Assembly (NCBI RefSeq): GCF_003576345.1
Contig: NZ_QWGB01000014.1
Coordinates: 230,847 to 294,846 of the forward strand
Direction: 5' to 3'
Length of the DNA: 64,000 nucleotides
Source: Henriciella barbarensis
Lineage (GTDB): Bacteria; Pseudomonadota; Alphaproteobacteria; Caulobacterales; Hyphomonadaceae
Of the stretch, positions 26,400-40,392 are shown piece by piece. A model generated the notes under the pieces. The model was not told the DNA's origin, searched no databases, and saw nothing but the letters and a program-made list of their open reading frames with translations. Each line of letters begins with the position of its first letter. Position 1 is the first letter of the stretch. Both the position numbers and the translations under genes were made by a program.

Positions 26400-26475
26400 G
26401 CCGGTATAGCTCAGCTGGTAGAGCACCTGATTTGTAATCAGGGGGTCGGGGGTTCAAGTCCCTCTGCCGGCACCA
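26400..26475 (+). tRNA. tRNA-Thr (anticodon UGU)
   Basis: The 76-base cloverleaf is complete. The acceptor strand GCCGGTA pairs with TGCCGGC, the D-arm is GCTCAGCTGGTAGAGC, the anticodon stem CCTGA/TCAGG encloses TTTGTAA with anticodon TGT, and the T-arm has GGTTCAAGTC. The 3' CCA is encoded. It is the integration target of the genomic island that follows: its last 16 bases plus TT are duplicated at 40375-40392. Confidence 0.95.
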
Positions 26476-26477
26476 TT
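26460..26477 (+). repeat. attL: left direct repeat of the genomic island
   Basis: CCCTCTGCCGGCACCATT covers the 3' end of tRNA-Thr plus two bases. An identical 18-base copy is at 40375-40392. Its position inside a tRNA 3' end and directly before a tyrosine integrase gene is the classical arrangement of an integrated island. Confidence 0.9.
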
Positions 26478-26714
26478 ATGACGCTCTCACGACGCTGAAA
26501 TCGCTGTGTTTATTGGGGTTTGGCAAATCCTTTTGATACACTAATGGGTACACAGCGATATGACATTCAGCGTTTCAGGCGAGGTCGCCTGCTGCTATTT
26601 CACAAAGCTCAGGACTAGCAGCTCACCCCTTCAAAGACATCTTGGTCGGTTCCTCGAAGTCTGCCTCAAGGCAACTTTGAAGACGGTTGACGTATGTGCG
26701 GAGGGTATTCGGAC

Positions 26715-28145
26715 ATGCTCATGAAGATAGACTACCTTCAGCGCCGTGGAGGCAAGCTTCGGTATCGCCGCCGCATCCCCGAGGACATCAGGCCCTACTT
26801 CGGCGGACGGGCTGAGATTGTTCAATCGCTAGGGCTCAATGCCGGGGACGAAGCAAAAGCCATTGCGCTAATCAAGCGAATTGACCGCGATATCTCGGTT
26901 CAGTTCCTCGAGGCGGCGAGAGCTGCTCATCGTAAAGAGGATCCTGCTGTCTTGGCAAAGCTTGCCGAGGAATGGGCGATTGCTAACAAGTTTCTAGGCG
27001 TTGACAGGTCTGGTTTGGAGAACCCCTACGATCCCAAGGGGCCATCCAATTATGATACTTGGCTGGACGGAACTATTCACGCAGCTGAACAGAAGATCGG
27101 CACAGAGCGCGAACTGGATCTGTCGGACCTGAGCCTTGAGGATCAGTATCGCATTGAAACGGTGAAGTCCGGTAAGCGCGTCACAGCGCCTCTCACAATC
27201 GAGACCGCCATTGAGACTTACGCTACCATGAGGCACGCGGGCGAGCTTCCAAAGGCAGAAAGCGCCGCGTTCAGCCAGCTTCGCGAATGGCTAGGAAAAT
27301 CTTCGACTCGCTACCTTTCTGAGTTGAGCCGCTCAATGGCGCGAGAGTTTCTGGGACATCTAGCGAATGCCCGGCAGCAGCGAGCAGGGACCATACGGCG
27401 TCGATTGAACTCTCTGAGGGCGCTGTGGAGCTTCTCGATCGACCACTATGAGCTGACCTTTGCGAACCCGTGGGCGCGCTTGGAGGTGCCTGTGGCTACG
27501 GAGCTGAAGCCCGTTGAAGAGCGCCTGCCATTTAATGCGGCGCATTGGGACAAGATCGATACCCTCCTCATGCAGGCTTCGGGCGACATCAGAGATGTTC
27601 TTCTCCTCCTAAAGTTTACGGGATGCCGCCCACTGGAGATTGCTGGACTGGCTGTAGACGACGTCGTGAGGATGGACGGCCTAACGTGTCTGCGTATCCG
27701 CAAGAATGAGTTCAGGCGCATCAAGAACCGCGAAAGCGATCGCTTGGTACCCTTGGTCGACCCACAAGCCGTATCGGTTATTGAGAGACGTCTGGGTGAA
27801 ACAGGATCGCTCTTCCCTGAAACTTTGCACGGAACCTCAAATCTCAGCGCGAGGCTGAACCATGCCATCCGAAAGGCAGGTATTCCTCAATCCTCACGAC
27901 TGACAGCTTACTCCATTCGTCACTCGGTTACTGAAGCGCTGCGCGTCGCGGGTGCACCTGATCATCACATGAAGGCCATACTCGGGCACGCCGATGCAAC
28001 CACGACCGCGCGGTACGGTGCTGGCGGTGTCGACGTTTCAGATCTCGCGCGTAGCTTACAGATGGCCCAAGCTCACCTTGGTAAGGTGCCACTCCACATT
28101 TATGAAGCTGAAGAGCTGCTCGATGTAGACGCTACGCCCATCTAG
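26715..28145 (+). CDS. Tyrosine-recombinase integrase of the island
   Basis: A 476-residue site-specific recombinase. The N-terminal part has the YLQRRGGKLRYRRRIPEDI arm-binding-like segment seen in many alphaproteobacterial island integrases, and a core-binding SAM-like domain lies near residues 180-260. The catalytic domain shows Arg305 (TGCRPLEI), SIRHSVTEAL with the second Arg and a His (the usual first His of box II is Tyr), ILGHADATTTARYG, and nucleophile Tyr434. ATG 26715 with GGAGG ten bases upstream is preferred. It reads away from the tRNA-Thr attachment site and should catalyse integration and excision of the 26460-40392 segment. Confidence 0.92.
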   Translation: MLMKIDYLQRRGGKLRYRRRIPEDIRPYFGGRAEIVQSLGLNAGDEAKAIALIKRIDRDISVQFLEAARAAHRKEDPAVLAKLAEEWAIANKFLGVDRSGLENPYDPKGPSNYDTWLDGTIHAAEQKIGTERELDLSDLSLEDQYRIETVKSGKRVTAPLTIETAIETYATMRHAGELPKAESAAFSQLREWLGKSSTRYLSELSRSMAREFLGHLANARQQRAGTIRRRLNSLRALWSFSIDHYELTFANPWARLEVPVATELKPVEERLPFNAAHWDKIDTLLMQASGDIRDVLLLLKFTGCRPLEIAGLAVDDVVRMDGLTCLRIRKNEFRRIKNRESDRLVPLVDPQAVSVIERRLGETGSLFPETLHGTSNLSARLNHAIRKAGIPQSSRLTAYSIRHSVTEALRVAGAPDHHMKAILGHADATTTARYGAGGVDVSDLARSLQMAQAHLGKVPLHIYEAEELLDVDATPI

Positions 28146-28368
28146 GAAAACCTGCGCTGATTGAAGGAGCGCGACCAAAAGTTGTCGTATAGGAGAAACC
28201 AGCTGGGTTACCTCGGTGGTTGCCGAGAACCCCGCGTAAAAGAGAAAGCGGCAGCGGCATCGATTTCTAGCGCAAAAATCTGAGCGCCGTCTAGATCTCG
28301 TGATCGTGTCGCTTTCCCCCCCTGGGGTAGGTGCTTGTTCGGCGACGTTCTGCTACCACTTTCCCACG

Positions 28369-28881
28369 ATGCCTGACTACCAGACCCTAATGCGTCCTGT
28401 GTTGCACTATGCCCGAGAGGGAGAGGTCCGCATCAATGACGCGGTCGACAAGATAGCGGATGAGTTTGAACTCTCTCCTGAAGAACGCGAGGAATTGCTT
28501 CCCAGTGGAAGGCAGACCGTCATCTACAATCGGACGCAATGGGCGAAGACATACCTGAAGCAGGCAGGGCTGGTTCGTGCGACCCGTCGTGCACACTATG
28601 AGCTAACTGATCGGGGCCGCGAGGCTTTGGATCAGTCTGCTCAACTTACCAACCGTCACTGTCTGAAGCAGTTCGCTGAGTTTCAAGATTTCCAGTCTCG
28701 ATCCAGATCAGAAGAGGACGTCGCAGAACAGACTGCTGAGCCGTTGGCAGGAACGCTCGATGAGACCCTGCAACGCGCTCACCGGCTCATCAATGAGAGC
28801 CTGCAGAGGACCTACAATATCGGCTGCCGCGACGAAGAGGTACTTTACCTCAAGAAGGTCGATGAGGACTTCTTCGAGTAA
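28369..28881 (+). CDS. Solo Mrr-type N-terminal winged-helix protein (catalytic domain absent)
   Basis: A 170-residue protein whose first about 90 residues match the Mrr N-terminal DNA-binding domain: MPDYQTLMRPVLHYA, LPSGRQTVIYNRTQWAKTYL and YELTDRGREALD are landmarks. In full Mrr restriction enzymes a PD-(D/E)XK catalytic domain follows; here the protein ends about 75 residues later at VDEDFFE, just where that domain would begin. No continuation appears in other frames. It may be a truncated remnant or a solo DNA-binding regulator. No clear ribosome binding site precedes ATG 28369; a GTG at 28300 is an alternative. Confidence 0.7.
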   Translation: MPDYQTLMRPVLHYAREGEVRINDAVDKIADEFELSPEEREELLPSGRQTVIYNRTQWAKTYLKQAGLVRATRRAHYELTDRGREALDQSAQLTNRHCLKQFAEFQDFQSRSRSEEDVAEQTAEPLAGTLDETLQRAHRLINESLQRTYNIGCRDEEVLYLKKVDEDFFE

Positions 28882-29332: not shown

Positions 29333-30598
29333 ATGACAAACCGAATGAAGACCAGGCCATGGTGCCCGGATACCGTACCTATGAGCATCGCAGCCGAGCA
29401 GCTCGTAGACTTAGCTCTAGAAGAACAGTTCCAAGCTCGACGGTCTCGTCAGGCTGATCAAGGAAAGGTTGCCCGACGCAGCAAGGGTCTCACCGCCACG
29501 AAGGAGCGTGCGTCTGTGGCAGCGATTACGCTGGATGTGCTGGCCCATCACCAAAGTGGTGACCGCGTCCCCTTCATCTTCAAACTTAACAAAACTTGGC
29601 TCTCCCGAGGCCCTGAGGAGCAGCTAGCTCGCAATCGCGCGGTGGGCGACCGAGTAAGAGACCTGGAGGAGGCAGGATGGCTCCTATGCAATAGGTCGTT
29701 CCGTTTCAACAACTGCTACATGACGCGGCTTCAGGCCGGTCCAAGGCTCATCGAGGCTTCAGAGGCCGTTGGCTTGCAGCTGAACGATATTGGATACGAA
29801 AGCGCTCTCCCAATCATCGAGCTGAAAGGCCCGAAGATCGGTGCTAGGAGAGAAACTCTCCCTCTGCCAAAGTCAGCCCGTGTCGACGCTTACCTAAGGC
29901 AGCTTGCGGAGCTTCAGGCCCATCTGAACAGCGCAAAACTGACAGAAGCAGGGTCTGGTAACTTCCGCATCCACACAAGTTGCCGGGTGGTTTCCCGAAG
30001 CTTTCTTGACGGCTCTCTGGAAAGAGGTGGGCGTCTGAATGGTTCTGCATTCTGGCTCTGCCTACCCAAGGAGCAACGTCGAGCTAACCTACGCATCTCC
30101 GGTGAACCAATCGCCGAAGTCGACATCCGGGCGGCAGTCCCCGCTATAGCGTACGCCTATGTGGGGCAGTCTCCCGACGGCGACCCTTATGCTCTCCCGC
30201 AAGCCCCGGACATACCTCGCGACGCCGTAAAGAAAGTCATGATGCAGATGTTCTGGTCGGAGATTAGCTCCAGATCGCGTCTACCCGACGAAGCCCGTCT
30301 GATGATACCAGACGCCTATACAGCGAAGCATGTCTACAGCCGGATCCGAGAGCGTAACGCACCCATCGCTTCGTTGTTGGGGCGCTCGGACCCCTTAGGT
30401 GCCAAGCTGATGTGGTTTGAGAGTGAGATCATCATGGAGGCGACGCTTCGGTGTTACACAGCGGGCATCCACGCGCTGCCGCTGCACGATGCTCTTTTGG
30501 TTCCCGCGAGTGCCGCTGAGCATGCCAAGGAAATCCTGCAGGCAGCCTTCGTCGACCGGATGAGGAAAACTCCTGAGGTGACGATAGAGCGGTTCTAG
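29333..30598 (+). CDS. Protein with family-A DNA polymerase-like palm motifs (island-encoded)
   Basis: A 421-residue protein. The C-terminal half contains three segments in the order and spacing of polymerase A motifs: EVDIRAAVPAIAYA with Asp264 (motif A-like), RDAVKKVMMQMFW with Arg296 and Lys300 (motif B, O-helix-like), and LPLHDALLVP with His385-Asp386 (motif C-like, compare VHDE). Both metal-binding aspartates are therefore present. There is no 3'-5' exonuclease domain, and the N-terminal half includes a winged-helix-like RNRAVGDRVRDLEEAGWLL. An element-encoded mini-polymerase, primase-polymerase or replication protein is plausible but inferred. AGGA lies just before the start. Confidence 0.55.
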   Translation: MTNRMKTRPWCPDTVPMSIAAEQLVDLALEEQFQARRSRQADQGKVARRSKGLTATKERASVAAITLDVLAHHQSGDRVPFIFKLNKTWLSRGPEEQLARNRAVGDRVRDLEEAGWLLCNRSFRFNNCYMTRLQAGPRLIEASEAVGLQLNDIGYESALPIIELKGPKIGARRETLPLPKSARVDAYLRQLAELQAHLNSAKLTEAGSGNFRIHTSCRVVSRSFLDGSLERGGRLNGSAFWLCLPKEQRRANLRISGEPIAEVDIRAAVPAIAYAYVGQSPDGDPYALPQAPDIPRDAVKKVMMQMFWSEISSRSRLPDEARLMIPDAYTAKHVYSRIRERNAPIASLLGRSDPLGAKLMWFESEIIMEATLRCYTAGIHALPLHDALLVPASAAEHAKEILQAAFVDRMRKTPEVTIERF

Positions 30599-30861: not shown

Positions 30862-31749
30862 CTACGCTTCCCACGCAGTGCTCTCATAGATGTCTCGATG
30901 GCTGCCGACGCGAACGACCGCCATTCCGAGTGCCTTCAAAAACGGGAAGCGGTGTCGGAGTCGCTCGCTGTCCCGCGCTACATACCAGAGGGGGCGTTTA
31001 ATATCAGGATACTTTCGATGCAGTCTGGCACGTTCTAGGAATAGCCAGCGCATAAAGGTCTCGTCCTTGTGAAAGCCAAAGCCGATCACGGCCATCGGAT
31101 TGAAGAAGAAAGCCTCCAGCCACGACCTTTGCCCAGGCCAGGTCTCTGACTTGCCTTCAACGTAGTTGTGCAAGGCCCGTCTGTTCTTGATCCAGCTCTC
31201 AATCCGGCTGACCGATCCCATATAGTCGACCAGGCCAAGCCTGATGCTTTGCTTGTACCGGATGAAACCATGCGGATGCCAAACCGCGAAGTTGCGGCGG
31301 ACATTCTTGACCTGATTGTATGCGAAATGCGCCCGGAAGGGATAGACATAGACATTCTCGTCTACTCCAAAGAACTCAAGACCGCTTGCCTCTCCAAGAA
31401 GTGCATCGAAGTTCATGGAGAGTATCGGGGTTTGGTTCGACGATGCCCACTTGATGACGCGAGCGTGCACCTCTGAGGGATGCCACAGCTCCATCATCGA
31501 CCGGACTTCGCCCTTCAGGTCTTCTCGACTTTCGTTTGGGGCAGCAAGGTCGAGAATGTCGTACCGCTCCGTGTTCGACATTTCTCTAAGCTCAGAAGTT
31601 GAGAGGATCAGATTTCGGCGCTTTGCAAGCCGGTTGAGAAGATCCTCCCAACTAGCGTTCCCAGAGTCTGCATACTGATTGATGCCATTGCCAAGTAGAA
31701 GGGCAGGCGGGTCATCTTGGTTAAGCACATCATCAAGCGGTGTTGCCAT
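30862..31749 (-). CDS. SIR2-like domain protein (probable NAD-dependent defence effector)
   Basis: A 295-residue protein with the SIR2-like fold motifs of defence-associated NADases: LLLGNGIN near residue 18 (nucleotide-binding loop), SMNFD with Asn113 (equivalent to the TTNYD Asn), WHPHGFI with His158 and His160 (catalytic His candidate), and VIGFGFHKDETFMRWLF (the GxGxxD-type segment). Standalone SIR2-like proteins in defence islands deplete NAD+ on phage infection; activity here is inferred. A TTG four codons upstream is an alternative start. It is 22 bases downstream of the B3-like gene and in the same orientation as the hsd genes. Confidence 0.78.
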   Translation of the reverse strand: MATPLDDVLNQDDPPALLLGNGINQYADSGNASWEDLLNRLAKRRNLILSTSELREMSNTERYDILDLAAPNESREDLKGEVRSMMELWHPSEVHARVIKWASSNQTPILSMNFDALLGEASGLEFFGVDENVYVYPFRAHFAYNQVKNVRRNFAVWHPHGFIRYKQSIRLGLVDYMGSVSRIESWIKNRRALHNYVEGKSETWPGQRSWLEAFFFNPMAVIGFGFHKDETFMRWLFLERARLHRKYPDIKRPLWYVARDSERLRHRFPFLKALGMAVVRVGSHRDIYESTAWEA

Positions 31750-31771
31750 AAGTCTGTGCAATCCTCGTGTA

Positions 31772-32125: not shown

Positions 32126-33007
32126 CTACTGCACGATTTTCACTGTGACGCCCAGTTTCCGCGCGAGCGGCTTCAGGCGCGATGGGAGCGGTTGCTCTAT
32201 GGCGAGCACGACTACGACATTCGTTTCAATGCCGTTAGCTTCCCTCATCGCCTCATACACCGCGCGGTACTTGACGCATTGATAGATGCCGCGCTCCAAG
32301 TCGTGTTCATTTGAGCGACGTGATTTCACTTCAACAAGGCGTATTTCTGCTTTGCCTATGATGCACACATCGACCACATCGCCGGACTTCAGCGAAACCT
32401 CCGGCTCAGGTTTGAGCCAACTCGGCTTGGCGTCGACGAGCGCGGGATTAGCGATAATTCGCTCTTTCAGAGCCTTGTGCTCGGGGCTCTCTGCGTCTCC
32501 GCCTCGGGGCTGACCAGGCGAAGTTGATCGGTCGATCTCAGTCCCTGTCTCAGGTGCCGTCCGGGCTGTGTCAGGCAGCGACGTACCAAATAGAGTCTCT
32601 GCGATCGCGTCCCATTCCTCGAAGGCGTAAACCTCTGCAAGGGCGCGATTGATTAGGTCTTGCCTAAGGCTCTCGCTTCTTTGGATTTGGCTCAATCGCT
32701 TGTTGTAGCGAGCAGCCAGGAACTGATCGGCACCCCCGCTTGCTATTCCGGAACTCTGGTTCACTGCGAGCAGGTTCAGCAGCGGCGCATCTGGAAAGCT
32801 CTCCAGAATGCGTTCCATCAAGGCTCCAACCGGATGACCGATCTGGGTAGAGAAGATGCGGCCCTCAATTTTGAGATCGTGCTCCAATTTCTCAGCGATC
32901 TGTCCGTAAGTGATGGTCGCGTGTTCCTGAGCTGCGGCGACCAAGTAGGCCATTGTATGGGGAAGGCCGTCTGACGTGAGCTGGCTTAGGGTGTATCTTG
33001 GCATCAT
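32126..33007 (-). CDS. PD-(D/E)XK nuclease with Ada/MGMT-like N-terminal domain
   Basis: A 293-residue protein. The C-terminal part has the nuclease core VDVCIIGK ... RLVEVKSRR, with Asp213, Glu226 and Lys228 forming the D...ExK triad, after a GDVVD strand. The N-terminal about 100 residues (TITYGQIAEKL ... IGHPVGALMERILESFPDAP ... NQSSGIASGG) recall the winged-helix part of alkyltransferase-like proteins but lack the PCHR active Cys, so a role in DNA or lesion recognition is possible. The stop of hsdS overlaps its ATGATG start, showing tight coupling to the type I system. The nuclease core is well supported; the N-terminal reading is tentative. Confidence 0.68.
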   Translation of the reverse strand: MMPRYTLSQLTSDGLPHTMAYLVAAAQEHATITYGQIAEKLEHDLKIEGRIFSTQIGHPVGALMERILESFPDAPLLNLLAVNQSSGIASGGADQFLAARYNKRLSQIQRSESLRQDLINRALAEVYAFEEWDAIAETLFGTSLPDTARTAPETGTEIDRSTSPGQPRGGDAESPEHKALKERIIANPALVDAKPSWLKPEPEVSLKSGDVVDVCIIGKAEIRLVEVKSRRSNEHDLERGIYQCVKYRAVYEAMREANGIETNVVVVLAIEQPLPSRLKPLARKLGVTVKIVQ

Positions 33008-34440
33008 GCCGGTTCCTTATGGAGGCGCTTCAGGAGCTCGCTAGCGGGTTCATCCTTTGGGTCCTGCGGGACCAGCTCGCCGCGAAAGGCCTTGGCGAGG
33101 ACGGCGCGGTCCAGTTTGTCGAGACGCCCACGGGAGGAGCGTGCGGCATTCGCCAGTGTGTCGATTTGGGTTAGAGCCTCCTCGACCCGGCGCACGATCA
33201 CTTCTTGTTCCTCAGGCGGAGGCAGAGCGATGTGCATGGCACGAACTTCAGGGAAGTAGATAGTGGTGTGTGTTGTTCCCTTGCCGAACCGCCGGATAGC
33301 GTCGCCCTCGGCCATCAGCACGTACATCAAGTACTTGGGAACGAGGAGTTCGCCGCATGTCCAGGTCACGAAGTCCTGGCTCGTGGCCATCTCTTCACCC
33401 ATGATGAAGACGTATCCTACTGAAGCGGTGCGAGAGAGGCAGACAGTGCCAGCGGGCAGCAGTCGGGACGCGGAGTTATCCAATCCGGCCTGACTCACCG
33501 TCTGCAGCGTCTCGTAGATTGTCTGCCCATGATGGAGCCGGGCGTCTTTGATGCCGATCCATTTGATGCCGCCATGCCAGTACTCGGGCTTCGAGCGGCT
33601 GGGAGTGTGCCCAGTTTCCTGGCGTGCCAGGTGGTTCAAAGCGGCCCATTGCCAGCCTTCGGGTAGTTCTCTCTCAGGTGCGTTGAGCGCCAAACCCCCG
33701 ATACCGTCGACCACGCTGTCTGACGCGACGCGCCCGCCGCGTGGCTGTTCGGGCGGAGTGTAGGTTTGCAAAAGCTCAGGCACTGACAAAGGATGATTGT
33801 TTGTGCGCCAGTCGGTTGTGAGTTTTCCACGAGCGCCCGCCAAGAGCACAGCCTGCCGATACTGCTCGACCAGGGTTTCGACGCGGGTGAGGGCGGTGCG
33901 GGCTTCGGTGGAGGCGGTGGTCAGGCTGTCCAGCTTCTCCACGATCCGCTTCTGCTCGGCGAGTGGGGGGAGGGGTACACGGAATTTCCTAACGTCTGCC
34001 AAGTTCAATCTTGGGACGGCAGTGCCGAGTCTGGACCCGCCGTATTGATCGGTAGCGAGAGGCGACTTCAGAAAGTGCGTGGCGAAGTCGGCGTCCAGCA
34101 GTTGTTTATCAAAACGAATACGGCATGAAGACTGAGTGATGTTTCCACCCGACAGCCACTCTGGTACTCGTGCAATCTTTCCGATGGTCCCGACGATTGA
34201 GAGGATTATGTCACCTGTCTGGAGCGTCGATCGCCGGTATCTGTCTGCGATTTCTGGTGAGGTTCGTCTTATGCTGGCGCGGTCAATTCTGCCCGTTTGA
34301 TCTATCTCCGTAGGCCGGACATAGGGAACGCCGTCCGATACGTTGTCTTTTGGCTGAAGGATGCCATAAATAATCGGCGCATCGCCCTCACAGCAGTTTG
34401 CTAAGTCCGTTTCACTCCAATTGCTTGGCAGCCCACTCAT
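33004..34440 (-). CDS. hsdS: Type I restriction-modification specificity subunit
   Basis: A 478-residue HsdS with two target-recognition domains (about 1-160 and 250-420). Each is followed by a conserved helical spacer; VPLPPLAEQKRIVEKLDSLT and ALPPPEEQEVIVRRVEEALT are the classical TRD-end/coil junctions. It determines the bipartite DNA target and assembles with HsdM and HsdR. Four-base overlaps join it to hsdM upstream (ATGA at 34437-34440) and to the nuclease gene downstream. Both halves look intact. The recognition sequence cannot be deduced. Confidence 0.93.
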   Translation of the reverse strand: MSGLPSNWSETDLANCCEGDAPIIYGILQPKDNVSDGVPYVRPTEIDQTGRIDRASIRRTSPEIADRYRRSTLQTGDIILSIVGTIGKIARVPEWLSGGNITQSSCRIRFDKQLLDADFATHFLKSPLATDQYGGSRLGTAVPRLNLADVRKFRVPLPPLAEQKRIVEKLDSLTTASTEARTALTRVETLVEQYRQAVLLAGARGKLTTDWRTNNHPLSVPELLQTYTPPEQPRGGRVASDSVVDGIGGLALNAPERELPEGWQWAALNHLARQETGHTPSRSKPEYWHGGIKWIGIKDARLHHGQTIYETLQTVSQAGLDNSASRLLPAGTVCLSRTASVGYVFIMGEEMATSQDFVTWTCGELLVPKYLMYVLMAEGDAIRRFGKGTTHTTIYFPEVRAMHIALPPPEEQEVIVRRVEEALTQIDTLANAARSSRGRLDKLDRAVLAKAFRGELVPQDPKDEPASELLKRLHKEPA

Positions 34441-35882
34441 TCCGCTGCGACGAGCGCGTCCTCGTCCTCCCCTTCAAGCTCTGCCGTCAGCGTCTCGATT
34501 GCCGCCATGGCTATCTGCAACTCGCTCATGATGGCAGCTGCGATGTCTTCGGGCTCGCCGATCTCTTCGGTTTCGCTCTCGTCGCGTAGCCAGGTGATGT
34601 CGAGATTGTCCCCACGCGCCTCAATCGCCTCGCGGGTAAAGCAACGGAAACGGCCTTCTTCGCCTTCATCTTGGCGAGCCTCTGCGGCGTAGGCTTCCAC
34701 GAAGGGCTTCAGGTGCTCTGGCGTCAGCGGCGCTGTCTTGCCGAAGGCGGGCATGTTGGCGCGCATGTCATAGACCCAGACTTCCTGCGTGGTCTTCGAT
34801 GCGCCCTCATCGGCTTTCTCAAGGAAGATAACATTGGTCTTCACGCCCTGCGCATAGAAGATGCCAGTCGGCAGGCGAAGAATGGTATGGAGGTTGGCTT
34901 CATCCATGATCTTCTGGCGAAGCTGTTTGCCCTTGCCATCTTCGAAAAGGACATTGTCCGGCACAACGATGGCGGCGCGCCCGCCCGGCTTCAGAGAGCG
35001 CAGGCAGTGCTCTACGAAGGGAAGCTGGTAAGAGCTCACTGAGTGAGTGATGGTCAGGTCATCGCGCGTAGGCCGCCCGCCCGCGGGGCCAAAGGGCGGA
35101 TTGGTGAGGATGAGGTCTGCCTTGGACAGCGAAGCGCCCGCAGGAGACAGGGAGTCAGCCAGTAGGACATGGTCAGAGTCGACGCCGTGCAGGTGCAGGT
35201 TCATCAGGAGAAGGCGGTAGGTGCCTGGCACGTTTTCGATGCCGTGATAGGCGTTGCGCGTCTGGAAGACCTGTTGCTTCTCTGTGAGGTCCAGATAGTC
35301 GTCGGTCTTCCTGCGAATGTGCGTATCAGCAGCGATGATGAAGCCGCCTGTGCCGAGGGCGGGGTCTTGGATGACCTCACCGGGCTGCGGGTCCATCAGC
35401 TCAACCATAGCCTCGATCAGCACGCGCGGCGTGAAGTACTGACCCGCGCCTTTCTTGGTCTCTTCTGCGTTCTTCTGGAGGAGGCCTTCATAGAGGTCCC
35501 CGAAGCTGTCGCGGTCGGCAGAGTACCAGTCCAGCGCGTCGATAGAGGAGACAAGTTTGGCGAGGTTCACAGGTTCGCGTAGGAAGGTGGACGCATTGTC
35601 AAAGATCGCAGAGACACGGCGAGGAAGCTTGTTTTCAGGGTCGCCAAGCTCCGTCAGCAGGCGGCGGTAGTGCGTGAGCTGGTCGATGCCTTCGCGCGCT
35701 GTAATGGTGCTCCAGCGATATTTCTCAGGCAGAAAGTCATCTTCGCGGCCCTGCTCATGCATCATCTTGAGGAAGAGTAGATAGGTGAGCTCTGTGACGT
35801 ATTGCTGATAGGTGATGCCGTCCTTGCGGAGGATCGCACAGAGCCGCCACAGCTTGTTCACGAGATCGGAGGAGGGGTTCAT
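34437..35882 (-). CDS. hsdM: Type I restriction-modification DNA methyltransferase subunit
   Basis: A 481-residue N6-adenine methyltransferase. An N-terminal helical HsdM domain (about 1-130) is followed by the catalytic domain with the SAM-binding motif DPALGTGGFI from Asp173 and the catalytic NPPF at Asn261. With HsdS it methylates the host target. AAGGATA precedes the start. It lies 22 bases after hsdR and overlaps hsdS. Length and motifs are normal. Confidence 0.94.
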   Translation of the reverse strand: MNPSSDLVNKLWRLCAILRKDGITYQQYVTELTYLLFLKMMHEQGREDDFLPEKYRWSTITAREGIDQLTHYRRLLTELGDPENKLPRRVSAIFDNASTFLREPVNLAKLVSSIDALDWYSADRDSFGDLYEGLLQKNAEETKKGAGQYFTPRVLIEAMVELMDPQPGEVIQDPALGTGGFIIAADTHIRRKTDDYLDLTEKQQVFQTRNAYHGIENVPGTYRLLLMNLHLHGVDSDHVLLADSLSPAGASLSKADLILTNPPFGPAGGRPTRDDLTITHSVSSYQLPFVEHCLRSLKPGGRAAIVVPDNVLFEDGKGKQLRQKIMDEANLHTILRLPTGIFYAQGVKTNVIFLEKADEGASKTTQEVWVYDMRANMPAFGKTAPLTPEHLKPFVEAYAAEARQDEGEEGRFRCFTREAIEARGDNLDITWLRDESETEEIGEPEDIAAAIMSELQIAMAAIETLTAELEGEDEDALVAAE

Positions 35883-35904: not shown

Positions 35905-38900
35905 CTAGCCTGTATCCTGGGCAGACCAGACAGCTTCGTTGATGTCACCAAGAACAGACTCGAGGTCACCGTCAAAGGCCTGATTGCTGCGGTTCCAGCC
36001 GCCGAAATGCTGGAAAGCAGGCGCTGACAGCGTCTCGCGGTCTGCCACGGGGTGTTCCTTGAGCGCGTTTCCGATGCGCCTTAGCCATTGGCGCTGCTCT
36101 GATGTCCATGATCGCGACTGGGTCAAGCGCTGGATGGCATTCTCCACCCGCGTCTCATAAGGCACCAGAGGGTCGCCCAGAGCGGCTTGACGGACGAAGC
36201 CCAGAATATGTGCGGCGATATCGGCATTGCGCGCACGGCCATAGGCGGCCCGCAGCATGGGATAGGAGAAGTTCTCCTCATCCAACGCCAGGGCAAGCTC
36301 CTTGAGGCTTTGACGAGTCAACTCTCTAGGTCTCTGCGTTGCGGCTATCATGCCCGCAGAAGCATTGAGATTGTCGCGGATGTAGCGCTCGAAGGCTTCG
36401 ATATAGTCCTCTGGCGTCAAATCGTTTTTGAAGATGTCCTCAATCGCGATGAGCTCATCCTCATGCTCGGAGATGGGTACGCCGGGGCGTCGGCCTTTGG
36501 CGGGCGGCTCATCCAGGGTGGCGATGATCCTCGGGTGCGCCTCAAGATAGGCTGCCAGCTCTGCCGATGACTTCTTCTGGAGCTTGTCGGCGAGTGCTGC
36601 CGCGTTCTCGCCAGTGACGTCCTCAAGCGTTTCTGCCTGCTTGTCTGTGAGCCTTGGCACCCTGCGGCGTACCTTCGCCACGATCTGCTCCTGGACGCGC
36701 TTGCGGCTTGCCTCATCGGGCGCGTTGGCCAGGTCGGCTGCGAGCTGCGTGAAGCTGAGGTGGGGGTTGGTCACGACGGGCCGCATGTCCGTCATGGACT
36801 GCAGGTTGTCGTAGAGGTCGACTGCGTCGAAGATGCGGAACTCGGTCTTGTTGATCTCTGGGCAGAGCCTCGTCGCACGCCCGATCATCTGATCGTAGAG
36901 GATGCGGCTGTTCACGCGGCGCACGAAGACGAGGTTCGTGATTTTCGGGATGTCGACGCCAGTGCTGAGCATATCGACGGTGACAACGTATTTGGGGCGC
37001 GCGTCGCTGCGATAGCGCCGGATCGCGTCTCCAGCACGGTCAGTCTGCCCGGTGATCTTCATGACCAGGTCGTTTGGGACGGCATCCTCGCCATACTCTG
37101 CCTTTAGCTCCTCGTTCAACAAGCGGACCAGAAGATCGGCATGGTCGTCTCGTGCCGCGAAGATCAGCGTCTTGCCGTCTTCATCTGGGGGCACCTCTGA
37201 TGCAATCGTTTGGGCAACCACTCTGTTGAACGGTTCCGTGTAGACGCGCTTGTTAAACTGCTGCACCTCGAAGCCCATGTCGTCAGGTAGTGTCGCGGTG
37301 TCGATCACGCCCGTCGAAGGGTCGAGGATAGAGACCTCTTCGCCGCCCTTGAACGTGATGCCAGCAGTGTTGAGCGCCGTGACAATCCGTTTCGGGGGCA
37401 GGTGATCAGTCAGGTAGCCGTCGACCACGGCCTGACGGTAGCTGTAGCGATAGACAGGTGCGCCGAAGATTTCTGTCGTCTGTAGAGCGGGGGTCGCAGT
37501 CAGACCCACTTTGACGGCGTCGAAGTAGTCGAGCACGCGGCGATACTTCGAGAGATAGTCCTCGGTGGATCTGAACTCGATATCTTCATCGCTGAGCTCC
37601 CCATCCAGTGCGTAGCCCCGGTGGGCTTCATCGACGATCACCAGGTCATACATGCCGGGTGTTGGTCTACCCTCAGAGCTTCTGAAGACCCTCGCCACCA
37701 TGGACTGCACAGTCGCAACGTGAACGCGTGTATCCTCGTCTGGCATGCCATCGTCCGGTCCAATGACACTGTAGGTGTCAGTGAACTTGAGGAGGCCTTC
37801 AAGCTCCGTGTTCGCTAGGCCGTCCTTGGTCTGCTCAGCGAGGGCGTTGCGGTCGACAAGGAAGAGGATGCGCCTGAAGCGGCGGTGCTTGAGCGCTCGG
37901 TACATGAGCGCGATCGCCATACGGGTCTTCCCCGTGCCAGTTGCCATACTGATCAGGGCGGTATCGAGACCCTTTCCTATGGCCTCTTCGATCGCGGCGA
38001 TTGCGTCGCGCTGATAGTAGCGAAGGTTCGCATAGTCGAACGGCTCTTCAGCGAGCGCCTTCTCGCTCATCTGGGGTTCCTGCTCGAGCTTGCTGAGCAA
38101 ATCTCCCGGGGAATGCCACGCAGGAAGATCGCGTGGATGGTTCATTGAGGAGCGAAGGTCCCGGTACCAGATGCCGGACTTTTCCTTGAGCTGCTTGACG
38201 TGTGACCGCCCATTGGTGGCGAAGGCGAAGGGCACCTTGAAGGTTGGCGAGAAGTCACCCTTCGGGTCACGCGGCGCGCCCTCATATGGGGCACCGTCGA
38301 CAAGGTGTGGATAATCAAGATCGCGCGCGTACCGCTCAGCCTGCGCCAGCACGCCGGGGACGTCTTTGCTCTTTCGTTTTGCCTCGATCACGCCAACGCA
38401 GGTCTCGCCAACGAAGAGGGCATAGTCGACGGGTCCGGACTTTGTGGGCCATTCAGCTATGGCCATGCTCTGACCGGGCTGGGGTCGGGTCCCTCGGCTG
38501 TAACGCAAGTTCCTATGGTCCGCGCGCCACCCAGCGTCCTCCAGGGCAGAGTCGATGAGGTCTCTTGTGTCAGCCTCATTGAGCTCTACCTGGTCAGCCG
38601 CCTGGCTCGCCGCCTGACTTAGCTGAGCCTCCGTCGGCGCACCCTCAGATAGGGCCTCAGTGCGTAGTCTTGCGAGTTCTGCCTGAAGCTCTTCGAGCTC
38701 TACAGTCTGGTTCTTTGCCGCTTCAAGGAGACGCTCACGATCCCGTTTGATGGCATCAAGGCGGACAGAGCTGACGGCTTGTGCCTTCTGGGCAGCGCTG
38801 AGTTCCTCTGTGAGCTCTCCCAGCTGCGCCCTGAGGTCCTCGGCAGGGTCTTCGGTCGGGGGCGGGATAAACCGCAGTGACGGGTCGACGGTGATCTTGC

Positions 38901-39270
38901 GGTAGGCGCGTACGTACCACAGCGAAACCTTCTGGGCGAAGCGCAGGCAGGCCAGGGCATCATTAGCTGTCGACTTCAGCTCGTGGTTCGCCTCGTTGCC
39001 CCGCTTGCGGATGAAGTGAAGCATATCCGCGATCGACTTCGGCAAAAGCCCGTTGTTCTGAAGCGCGTTGAGCAGGTCGACCTGCTTGCTTGGGAAGTCC
39101 TGCGTCCGGTTGGAGTGGGCTGCGATCTGCTTGGCAACGGACTCACCGAACTGGCGTGACTTTAGCAGCGACGTGTTCGGGTCCTGCGTGAACAGAGCCT
39201 CCGCCAGAGAAGTCAGCCGATAGAGCAGGGGTTCATGCCCCTCCAGGAATGCAAAGTTGACGCTCTCCAT
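35905..39270 (-). CDS. hsdR: Type I restriction endonuclease subunit (EcoEI-like HsdR)
   Basis: A 1121-residue motor-nuclease. A DUF4145-like N-terminal domain (about 20-110) and a coiled coil (about 130-205) come first. Next is the HSDR_N nuclease with Asp282 and Glu296-Ala-Lys298, then a superfamily 2 helicase with ATGTGKT (Lys448) and DEAH (547-550), GLTATP and IGRATR, and a C-terminal EcoEI_R-type domain. It translocates DNA and cleaves unmethylated foreign DNA with HsdM and HsdS. It is first in the hsdRMS run and only 76 bases downstream of the GIY-YIG gene. It appears intact. Confidence 0.94.
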   Translation of the reverse strand: MESVNFAFLEGHEPLLYRLTSLAEALFTQDPNTSLLKSRQFGESVAKQIAAHSNRTQDFPSKQVDLLNALQNNGLLPKSIADMLHFIRKRGNEANHELKSTANDALACLRFAQKVSLWYVRAYRKITVDPSLRFIPPPTEDPAEDLRAQLGELTEELSAAQKAQAVSSVRLDAIKRDRERLLEAAKNQTVELEELQAELARLRTEALSEGAPTEAQLSQAASQAADQVELNEADTRDLIDSALEDAGWRADHRNLRYSRGTRPQPGQSMAIAEWPTKSGPVDYALFVGETCVGVIEAKRKSKDVPGVLAQAERYARDLDYPHLVDGAPYEGAPRDPKGDFSPTFKVPFAFATNGRSHVKQLKEKSGIWYRDLRSSMNHPRDLPAWHSPGDLLSKLEQEPQMSEKALAEEPFDYANLRYYQRDAIAAIEEAIGKGLDTALISMATGTGKTRMAIALMYRALKHRRFRRILFLVDRNALAEQTKDGLANTELEGLLKFTDTYSVIGPDDGMPDEDTRVHVATVQSMVARVFRSSEGRPTPGMYDLVIVDEAHRGYALDGELSDEDIEFRSTEDYLSKYRRVLDYFDAVKVGLTATPALQTTEIFGAPVYRYSYRQAVVDGYLTDHLPPKRIVTALNTAGITFKGGEEVSILDPSTGVIDTATLPDDMGFEVQQFNKRVYTEPFNRVVAQTIASEVPPDEDGKTLIFAARDDHADLLVRLLNEELKAEYGEDAVPNDLVMKITGQTDRAGDAIRRYRSDARPKYVVTVDMLSTGVDIPKITNLVFVRRVNSRILYDQMIGRATRLCPEINKTEFRIFDAVDLYDNLQSMTDMRPVVTNPHLSFTQLAADLANAPDEASRKRVQEQIVAKVRRRVPRLTDKQAETLEDVTGENAAALADKLQKKSSAELAAYLEAHPRIIATLDEPPAKGRRPGVPISEHEDELIAIEDIFKNDLTPEDYIEAFERYIRDNLNASAGMIAATQRPRELTRQSLKELALALDEENFSYPMLRAAYGRARNADIAAHILGFVRQAALGDPLVPYETRVENAIQRLTQSRSWTSEQRQWLRRIGNALKEHPVADRETLSAPAFQHFGGWNRSNQAFDGDLESVLGDINEAVWSAQDTG

Positions 39271-39346: not shown

Positions 39347-40195
39347 TCAGCTTATTTCTTGCCACTCACCATTCGCCGAGCCCCGAATTATGCGAAAGAG
39401 ATGCTCGCCGTCGAACTCGACAGCAATCCAGTTGCCGCGTTGCCAGTATCCACGTGCAGCATCAATTATGTGCGACCACCTAGCATTGTTAAGCCCGCTA
39501 TTGGCGATGGGCTGACCATCAAATTTCCACTTGTTTTGATCGGCGGGCATCCACCTTTCAATCTTGAAGACTCCTTTGCTAAGCCCTCGATCTAGGCCAA
39601 CGGCCACGGCGTCTGAGCGGTTTCGCCAAGTCTCACCGATGCCCCAATCGCCTCGTGTGGCAGCGTAGACGTCGTTGTCCGCCACTTCTTGCAATGCGTT
39701 TTGAATTGGAAAGACATACACTGAGGAAATCGCGTTAGCAGGATCTACCGGTCTAGCTCTCAGAGTCTCTAGCTCGGTGGGCAAAACAGCGCCATGAACT
39801 GCAGCATGATTGCCCGCCCGAGCGTTCAGTAGCTGCCCGTTCTGAGACGCATTGATGCCGCTCATCACTGCAGCCTCAGCGATCTCGGCCTCTCTCTGTG
39901 AGGCGTATCCGCGGCTGACGATTTGCCAATCAACGTACTCGTCTGCATGCCAGATCTCTGCAATGCGCCGCGTCTTGCTGGTATGTTCCTTCGGGTCGCC
40001 GGGGTCCTCCGCCTTCAGCGCTTCATTCAGATGGGATACAGCGCGGGCGCCAACGCCTTCCCCAACGTAGAACACCTTGTTGTCCCTCGGGTCACGTAGA
40101 AGGTAAACATAATGCTTTAGATGTTCGGCTGAGAGTTCGTTAAGAAGCTTCTCATGGTTCTCAATGAGCCCCCTCAGACTTTGTATCTCATGCAT
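39347..40195 (-). CDS. GIY-YIG nuclease-domain protein
   Basis: A 282-residue protein. The N-terminal half is a GIY-YIG domain: HYVYLLRDP and KVFYVGEGVGARAVSH give the GIY and YIG strands (the second as YVGEG), and REAEIAEAAVMSGI contains the probable catalytic Glu, as in LEM-3-like members. The second half (about 150-282), with a WSHIIDAARGYWQRGN strand pattern, is unrecognised. GGAGG eight bases before ATG 40195 argues for this start rather than the ATG at 40210. It lies at the island's right edge, upstream of hsdR on the same strand; it may belong to the defence set or be a separate island gene. Confidence 0.75.
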   Translation of the reverse strand: MHEIQSLRGLIENHEKLLNELSAEHLKHYVYLLRDPRDNKVFYVGEGVGARAVSHLNEALKAEDPGDPKEHTSKTRRIAEIWHADEYVDWQIVSRGYASQREAEIAEAAVMSGINASQNGQLLNARAGNHAAVHGAVLPTELETLRARPVDPANAISSVYVFPIQNALQEVADNDVYAATRGDWGIGETWRNRSDAVAVGLDRGLSKGVFKIERWMPADQNKWKFDGQPIANSGLNNARWSHIIDAARGYWQRGNWIAVEFDGEHLFRIIRGSANGEWQEIS

Positions 40196-40374
40196 GCTGA
40201 CAGCCTCCATTCATCGCCTTGATTAGATAGTTGTCGAATGTCAGCTGAAGAGCAACTTGCTCACCACAAATCGATACACGGGAGCTTGACCATCGGCACA
40301 CTTAGTCATACTTCGAAGACGCCAAATCCCAGTATTCACGGGCGATTGCAGTCCATGAGGCTTTCCGCTGGTCG

Positions 40375-40392
40375 CCCTCTGCCGGCACCATT
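40375..40392 (+). repeat. attR: right direct repeat of the genomic island
   Basis: CCCTCTGCCGGCACCATT is an exact copy of the tRNA-Thr 3' end at 26460-26477. The bases upstream of it do not continue the tRNA, so this is a duplicated fragment, not a second gene. It marks the right boundary of the roughly 14 kb island, and excision would leave one intact tRNA-Thr. Confidence 0.9.

Follow-up and report, generated by a model that had tools for sequence, protein, structure and literature searches.

Results

The window analysed here, a stretch of 64,000 nucleotides from Henriciella barbarensis, carries on its + strand the gene of P0001 (29333..30598, 421 aa), a predicted mini polymerase of the family A/T7 RNA polymerase (RNAP) type from the phrog_4756 / divPolA2 family. 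The gene lies within a 13.9-kb element, the ends of which are an 18-bp repeat of the 3' end of tRNA-Thr. The integration target is the tRNA-Thr(tgt) gene (26400..26475, + strand); the left boundary repeat, attL (CCCTCTGCCGGCACCATT), occupies 26460..26477 (+) and its identical copy, attR, was located 13,915 bp away at 40375..40392 (+). On the same strand as P0001 are encoded a tyrosine integrase (26694..28145; PF00589 and DUF6538), which is the core partner of the polymerase, and, between the two, a protein with an Mrr N-terminal domain, i.e. a winged helix and no nuclease domain (28300..28881; PF14338, E 3.7e-31). The cargo genes occupy the - strand and encode a SIR2-like protein (30862..31761; PF13289, E 1.2e-4, just under the curated cut-off), the type I restriction proteins HsdS (33004..34440; PF01420, E 2e-31), HsdM (34437..35882; PF02384, E 5.9e-72) and HsdR (35905..39270; PDLC03042, E 1.3e-239), and a GIY-YIG nuclease-like protein similar to PD-T4-3 (39347..40210; PF22945, E 1.9e-13; PADLOC PD-T4-3, E 2.2e-20). 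The restriction operon also includes a gene (32126-33007) for a 293-aa protein without a Pfam match, in which a stretch resembling PD-(D/E)xK nucleases, DVVDVCIIGKAEIRLVEVKSRR, was noticed by eye. Family-model matches revealed neither a replication helicase (HsdR aside) nor a known SSB family in the element, and no iteron-like origin was found beside the polymerase gene in the window.

Genomes of the same genus confirmed the element boundaries. The flanks of the element meet with a 16 bp overlap in G658 and lie about 25-30 bases apart in G585 and G573; the joined flanks in these three genomes are the empty integration site. In genomes G670, G671 and G672 extra copies of the tRNA-Thr 3' end were seen near the site (window 26400-26477), which suggests a hotspot of integration in the genus. 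In the same H. barbarensis genome, tRNA-Leu(cag) harbours a second element of about 13.5 kb (G000, contig C9, locus L161:4475-18010), with end repeats that differ by a 1-base slip. Its genes encode an integrase, type I restriction proteins, RNase H and a paralogue of P0001 (29% identical); the paralogue starts 2 bases after the RNase H gene. The host genome has nine integrase matches in 3.33 Mb, and the host PolA is encoded by a separate gene.

Residues 215-418 of P0001 matched the PHROG family phrog_4756, annotated as of unknown function (E 4.5e-17), and the same model matched all 23 members of our family alignment A1. No match was found for P0001 in Pfam (including DNA_pol_A, PF00476, at E <= 1), NCBIfam or PADLOC, nor in a phmmer search of PDB sequences. 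By this measure P0001 does not belong to canonical Pol I (PF00476), and the host PolA is a separate gene. The family profile retrieved from the PDB sequences no more than two mitochondrial RNAPs (E 2), although their motifs B and C lined up with those of the family. Conservation was assessed in an alignment of 121 non-redundant relatives, the identity of which to P0001 is mostly 16-28%. The motif A aspartate Asp264 (codon 30122..30124, + strand; EVDIRAAVPAIAYA), aligned with the motif A aspartate of Pol I, is invariant (121/121), as are G233, R234, R250 and Y286. In motif B, the RxxxK of the O-helix (Arg296-Lys300, codons 30218..30232, +; aligned with the Pol I RxxxK), the arginine is present in 119 and the lysine in all of the 120 relatives aligned there, and in motif C both His385 and Asp386 (codons 30485..30490, +; aligned with the T7 RNAP 'IHDSF') are found in 117/117; residue 363 is acidic, D or E, in 117/117. 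All these near-invariant positions are retained in P0001 and in its same-genome paralogue. The spacing between D264 and K300 (36) and between K300 and D386 (86) falls within the family ranges of 33-74 and 80-132, respectively. Hence the original prediction of a 421-residue reading frame with motifs A, B and C in this order had the positions right, and their conservation is far above chance.

In a profile comparison with hhalign, motif A, 'DIH' and motif B of DNA polymerase I fell on D264, D284-P-Y286 and R296...K300, respectively (E 0.038), and motif C of the T7-like RNA polymerases on H385-D386 (E 9.5e-4). Both values are weak, but they beat the column shuffles (12 for each comparison, E 0.19-0.98) and the integrase and resolvase profiles (0.3-0.67); the Pol I value is weak on its own, since the reversed family gave 0.067 against Pol I. 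Two positions set P0001 apart from most of the family: at motif A +5 it has Val, where 98/121 relatives have His, and at motif B K+8 it has Trp, where 98 relatives have Asn. In Pol I the motif A +5 residue is Glu, the ribose gate (PMC7581432). DNA synthesis is thus not assured by these residues, and the sequence alone does not fix the sugar (dNTP or NTP), the template or the mode of priming. The same departures, shared in position by the paralogue, are what might be expected if P0001 were a degenerate, inactive polymerase with a DNA-binding role only; with the near-invariant catalytic positions all kept in both proteins, we regard this as highly improbable.

The AlphaFold2 model of P0001, built with 113 sequences, had a mean pLDDT of 91.1 and a pTM of 0.88. 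In a Foldseek search of the PDB its top matches were all family A DNA polymerases, and with VIA-align, in which model residues about 157-421 were aligned, the best match was the yeast mitochondrial RNAP (Z 14.3, rmsd 3.2, 242 aligned residues), followed by T7 RNAP and the apicoplast PolA, both at Z 14.2. Pol I-type and RNAP-type folds are therefore tied (Z 13-14). Among predicted viral structures, the closest was the 'DNA polymerase' of Rheinheimera phage Barba31A (E 4e-17). According to the model and the motif register, residues 215-418 are a predicted palm and fingers of the family A/T7 RNA polymerase type, in which the fold match would bring Asp264 and Asp386 together at one metal site. The polymerase A palm that had been anticipated from the letters of the gene is thus borne out by a confident model that matches mitochondrial and T7 RNAPs as well as Pol I, and neither the model nor the fold comparison contains an exonuclease domain, as had also been proposed.

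P0001 could be a single-subunit RNA polymerase or an RNA-making primase, transcribing or priming the element in the way that T7 RNAP serves its phage: the mitochondrial and T7 enzymes are among the closest Z-scores, motif C reads HD[S/A] as in RNAPs and was best aligned to the T7-like ones, and the N-terminal domain has a weak match to that of T7 RNAP (Z 5.9). However, Pol I is equal within the error of Z and fills the top Foldseek ranks, and no recurrent promoter- or iteron-like repeats were found beside the polymerase gene. Gly and Tyr in motifs A and B mark the T7-type RNAPs, and these residues are not conserved in the P0001 family. We consider an RNA-making enzyme unlikely, although the same option was raised by the authors who described divPolA2 (PMC11348598).

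The N-terminal domain (residues 1-158; 29333..29806, + strand) was modelled separately with a pLDDT of 87. Foldseek found no confident match for it in the PDB (best E 0.19), and the weak matches, at Z 5-6, were mostly winged helices of the MarR, PadR and Fur type, in addition to the N-terminal domain of T7 RNAP. From these weak but uniform matches, the N-terminal half was read as probably a winged helix, DNA-binding-like in character. The original prediction that this half is unlike known polymerases thus stands insofar as nothing in the PDB matches it confidently, and is modified by the probable winged helix and the faint likeness to T7 RNAP.

A single-sequence search of 289 alphaproteobacterial genomes revealed relatives of P0001 in 15, and the phrog_4756 model found them in 25 of 398 genomes of the phylum as opposed to none of 14 control genomes. 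They also occur on four plasmids and in dozens of large Vibrio, Aeromonas and Pseudoalteromonas phages. One pattern scan of GTDB species genomes yielded 391 relatives, of which 80 were kept; for the search of loci, P0001 alone or a broad alignment retrieved nothing usable and a sub-alignment worked. At many of the loci the polymerase gene is flanked by tRNA-end repeats 2.4-14 kb apart, and 28 were taken as elements, an approximate set since some rest on repeats of 17-22 bp only. The only genes generally common to these 28 are those for the integrase and the polymerase. Among the 41 loci with complete flanks, an integrase profile detected a tyrosine integrase within about 10 kb of the polymerase at 37, the median gap being 2.1 kb, and among the 11 control loci of type I HsdR at 3 (Fisher p 8e-5, an indicative value since the loci are related and not fully independent). 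A serine resolvase was present at 14 of 75 polymerase loci. Integrase and polymerase are thus the only shared core of many small tRNA-gene elements, mostly in alphaproteobacterial genomes.

The cargo, in contrast to this core, is variable and often defence-like, with model matches to Septu, Gabija and Pycsar, a caspase, a reverse transcriptase and an ABC-3C component; no replication helicase is among the 25 most frequent cargo families. The caspase domain gene at L126:7449-8510, the reverse transcriptase gene at L150:14923-16359 and the NOV_C domain gene at L089:14647-15621 are possible uncharacterised defence genes. Such company raises the option, already included in the original prediction, that P0001 is itself cargo, a polymerase-derived antiphage effector, and other polymerases, e.g. 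the Abi reverse transcriptases, act in defence (PMC11077055). Nevertheless, besides the integrase the polymerase alone stays when the cargo changes, it is linked to the integrase far more often than the defence-gene control HsdR, members of the family also occur in phage genomes and no PADLOC model matches P0001. We rank the defence role low, as quite unlikely, because the polymerase gene behaves as core and not as cargo.

In three relatives an RNase H gene adjoins the polymerase gene on the same strand (L010:2309-2803, L018:2946-3464 and L002:995-1450), a rare arrangement that would be in keeping with RNA-primed replication. Scans for iterons beside the polymerase gene of the relatives gave scattered 9-mers in three copies, at about the frequency seen in shuffled sequences. 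At L075, L079 and L110, three-copy 9-mers with a GGGGCA/TGCCCC core flank the polymerase gene in some Rhodobacterales elements; these may be due to chance or be a binding site. In the tree of the core region P0001 and its paralogue are sisters (99/89) and belong to a clade with good support that unites chromosomal and plasmid members; the phage members are placed elsewhere, in several places.

Discussion

Taken together, the data point, a little better than evenly in our judgement, to P0001 as the polymerase of a small tRNA-integrated element, making DNA for the element's own replication and perhaps priming itself. In such a cycle the integrase would cut out the element at the repeats of the tRNA end, P0001 would be guided to element DNA by its N-terminal domain, and synthesis would proceed by a two-metal mechanism at Asp264/Asp386, possibly primed by P0001 itself; the circular form would then persist or be copied before reintegration. 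The fold model, the near-invariant active site, the exact ends with empty sites, the linkage to the integrase, the core that the 28 elements have in common, the lack of a replication helicase among the 25 commonest cargo families, the RNase H neighbours in three relatives and the precedent of CcPol-MP argue for this role. Points against it are that no iteron-like origin and no SSB or replication-helicase partner were recognised, that motif A +5 and motif B K+8 depart from the family majority, that no tested activity was found for the family, and that the barbaviruses with divPolA2 possess a PolB of their own. A role in replication or mobility is favoured over defence because of the tight integrase linkage. 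The proposal that P0001 is a small palm-type polymerase carried by an integrative element agrees with model, fold searches, conservation and element boundaries alike; the alternative of a defence protein, offered alongside it, has lost ground, the polymerase being core.

A small polymerase free of exonuclease might also fill gaps or repair DNA at excision and integration, or after damage, and not replicate the element. Tyrosine recombination in itself leaves no gaps, and the host PolA is present in the same genome. Repair was suggested for divPolA2 (PMC11348598); for P0001 we hold it to be decidedly unlikely.

A class of minimal elements can tentatively be envisaged, in which the core would consist of a tyrosine integrase and a winged-helix/superfamily A fusion performing origin recognition, priming and synthesis; we put this forward as a possibility that is rather doubtful at present. 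One small enzyme would then cover all three functions in widespread minimal integrative elements. The delimited elements offer a natural assay, since excision, copy number and reintegration can be compared with and without the polymerase. If active, P0001 would be unusually small for a palm/fingers polymerase of superfamily A, and it might find practical use as an enzyme that primes itself. It would also bear on the proposal that the ancestor of the Pol I and T7 RNAP lineages looked like a TV-Pol-type enzyme.

The closest known system is divPolA2, a family of barbaviruses and other tailed phages described in a 2024 paper on DNA polymerase swapping. Its palm looks active, an exonuclease is absent, the N-terminal domain has no known relatives and the protein resembles mitochondrial RNAP; the barbaviruses that carry it already encode a regular PolB (PMC11348598). 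P0001 belongs to this family, because the family profile, searched against MG592441, finds the divPolA2 reference protein AUR84708 at E 3.5e-43. P0001 shares with divPolA2 / phrog_4756 the sequence family, the palm motifs A, B and C without exonuclease, the compact N-terminal domain unlike the thumbs of other polymerases and the mitochondrial RNAP resemblance. P0001 is therefore no isolated case but one member of a large known family. Nevertheless, divPolA2 was described only in phages, in variable neighbourhoods beside PolB, whereas the kin of P0001 are the core of tRNA-integrated integrase elements, and P0001 and its paralogue form a subclade apart from divPolA2.

The second comparison concerns TV-Pol, the transposon/virus polymerases of mobile elements defined by Iyer and colleagues in 2008, which have 400-600 residues, a conserved arginine hairpin, two palm aspartates and, in the fingers, an Asp and RxxxK, and which were found, among others, in alphaproteobacterial islands with a lambda-type integrase or resolvase, beside restriction systems (PMC2579912). 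P0001 shares the corresponding residues (R234 or R250, either of which could be the hairpin arginine, D264, D386, D284 and R296-K300), and its family resembles TV-Pol in size and in the integrase/resolvase and restriction context; a D5 helicase, with which TV-Pol can be associated, was not recognised in the window element. Likened by this description, the P0001 family is probably TV-Pol. In phage Ma-LMM01, one of the genomes listed by Iyer and colleagues, the family profile gave a marginal match (E about 1) at MAP_030, which we take, as a guess, to be the TV-Pol of this phage.

The literature search found no biochemistry or tested activity for the P0001 family, and nothing relevant on such elements in Alphaproteobacteria in the mainly open-access journal literature that it covered. 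The sequence family itself is already known (phrog_4756 / divPolA2 and very likely also TV-Pol); new, as far as this search shows, are the connection of phage divPolA2 with tRNA-integrated elements, the precise ends of the element and the interpretation of the N-terminal domain as a probable winged helix. The biochemically studied analogue, and a functional precedent, is the CcPol-MP complex of SCCmec: its polymerase belongs to family A, it primes DNA (PMC7581432) and it has an SSB-like partner (PMC10061031). Like P0001, CcPol-MP and the PolA-SSB primases (SCCmec, Bacillota) are superfamily A polymerases of site-specifically integrating elements, which often carry restriction genes as the window element does; in contrast, they work with an SSB-like partner and a helicase and in most cases contain an exonuclease domain, complete or in part; nothing of this kind was recognised in the window element. 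The pipolins, with their primer-independent PolB (PMC7385651), are likewise integrated elements defined by a polymerase of their own, but of family B and not of family A.
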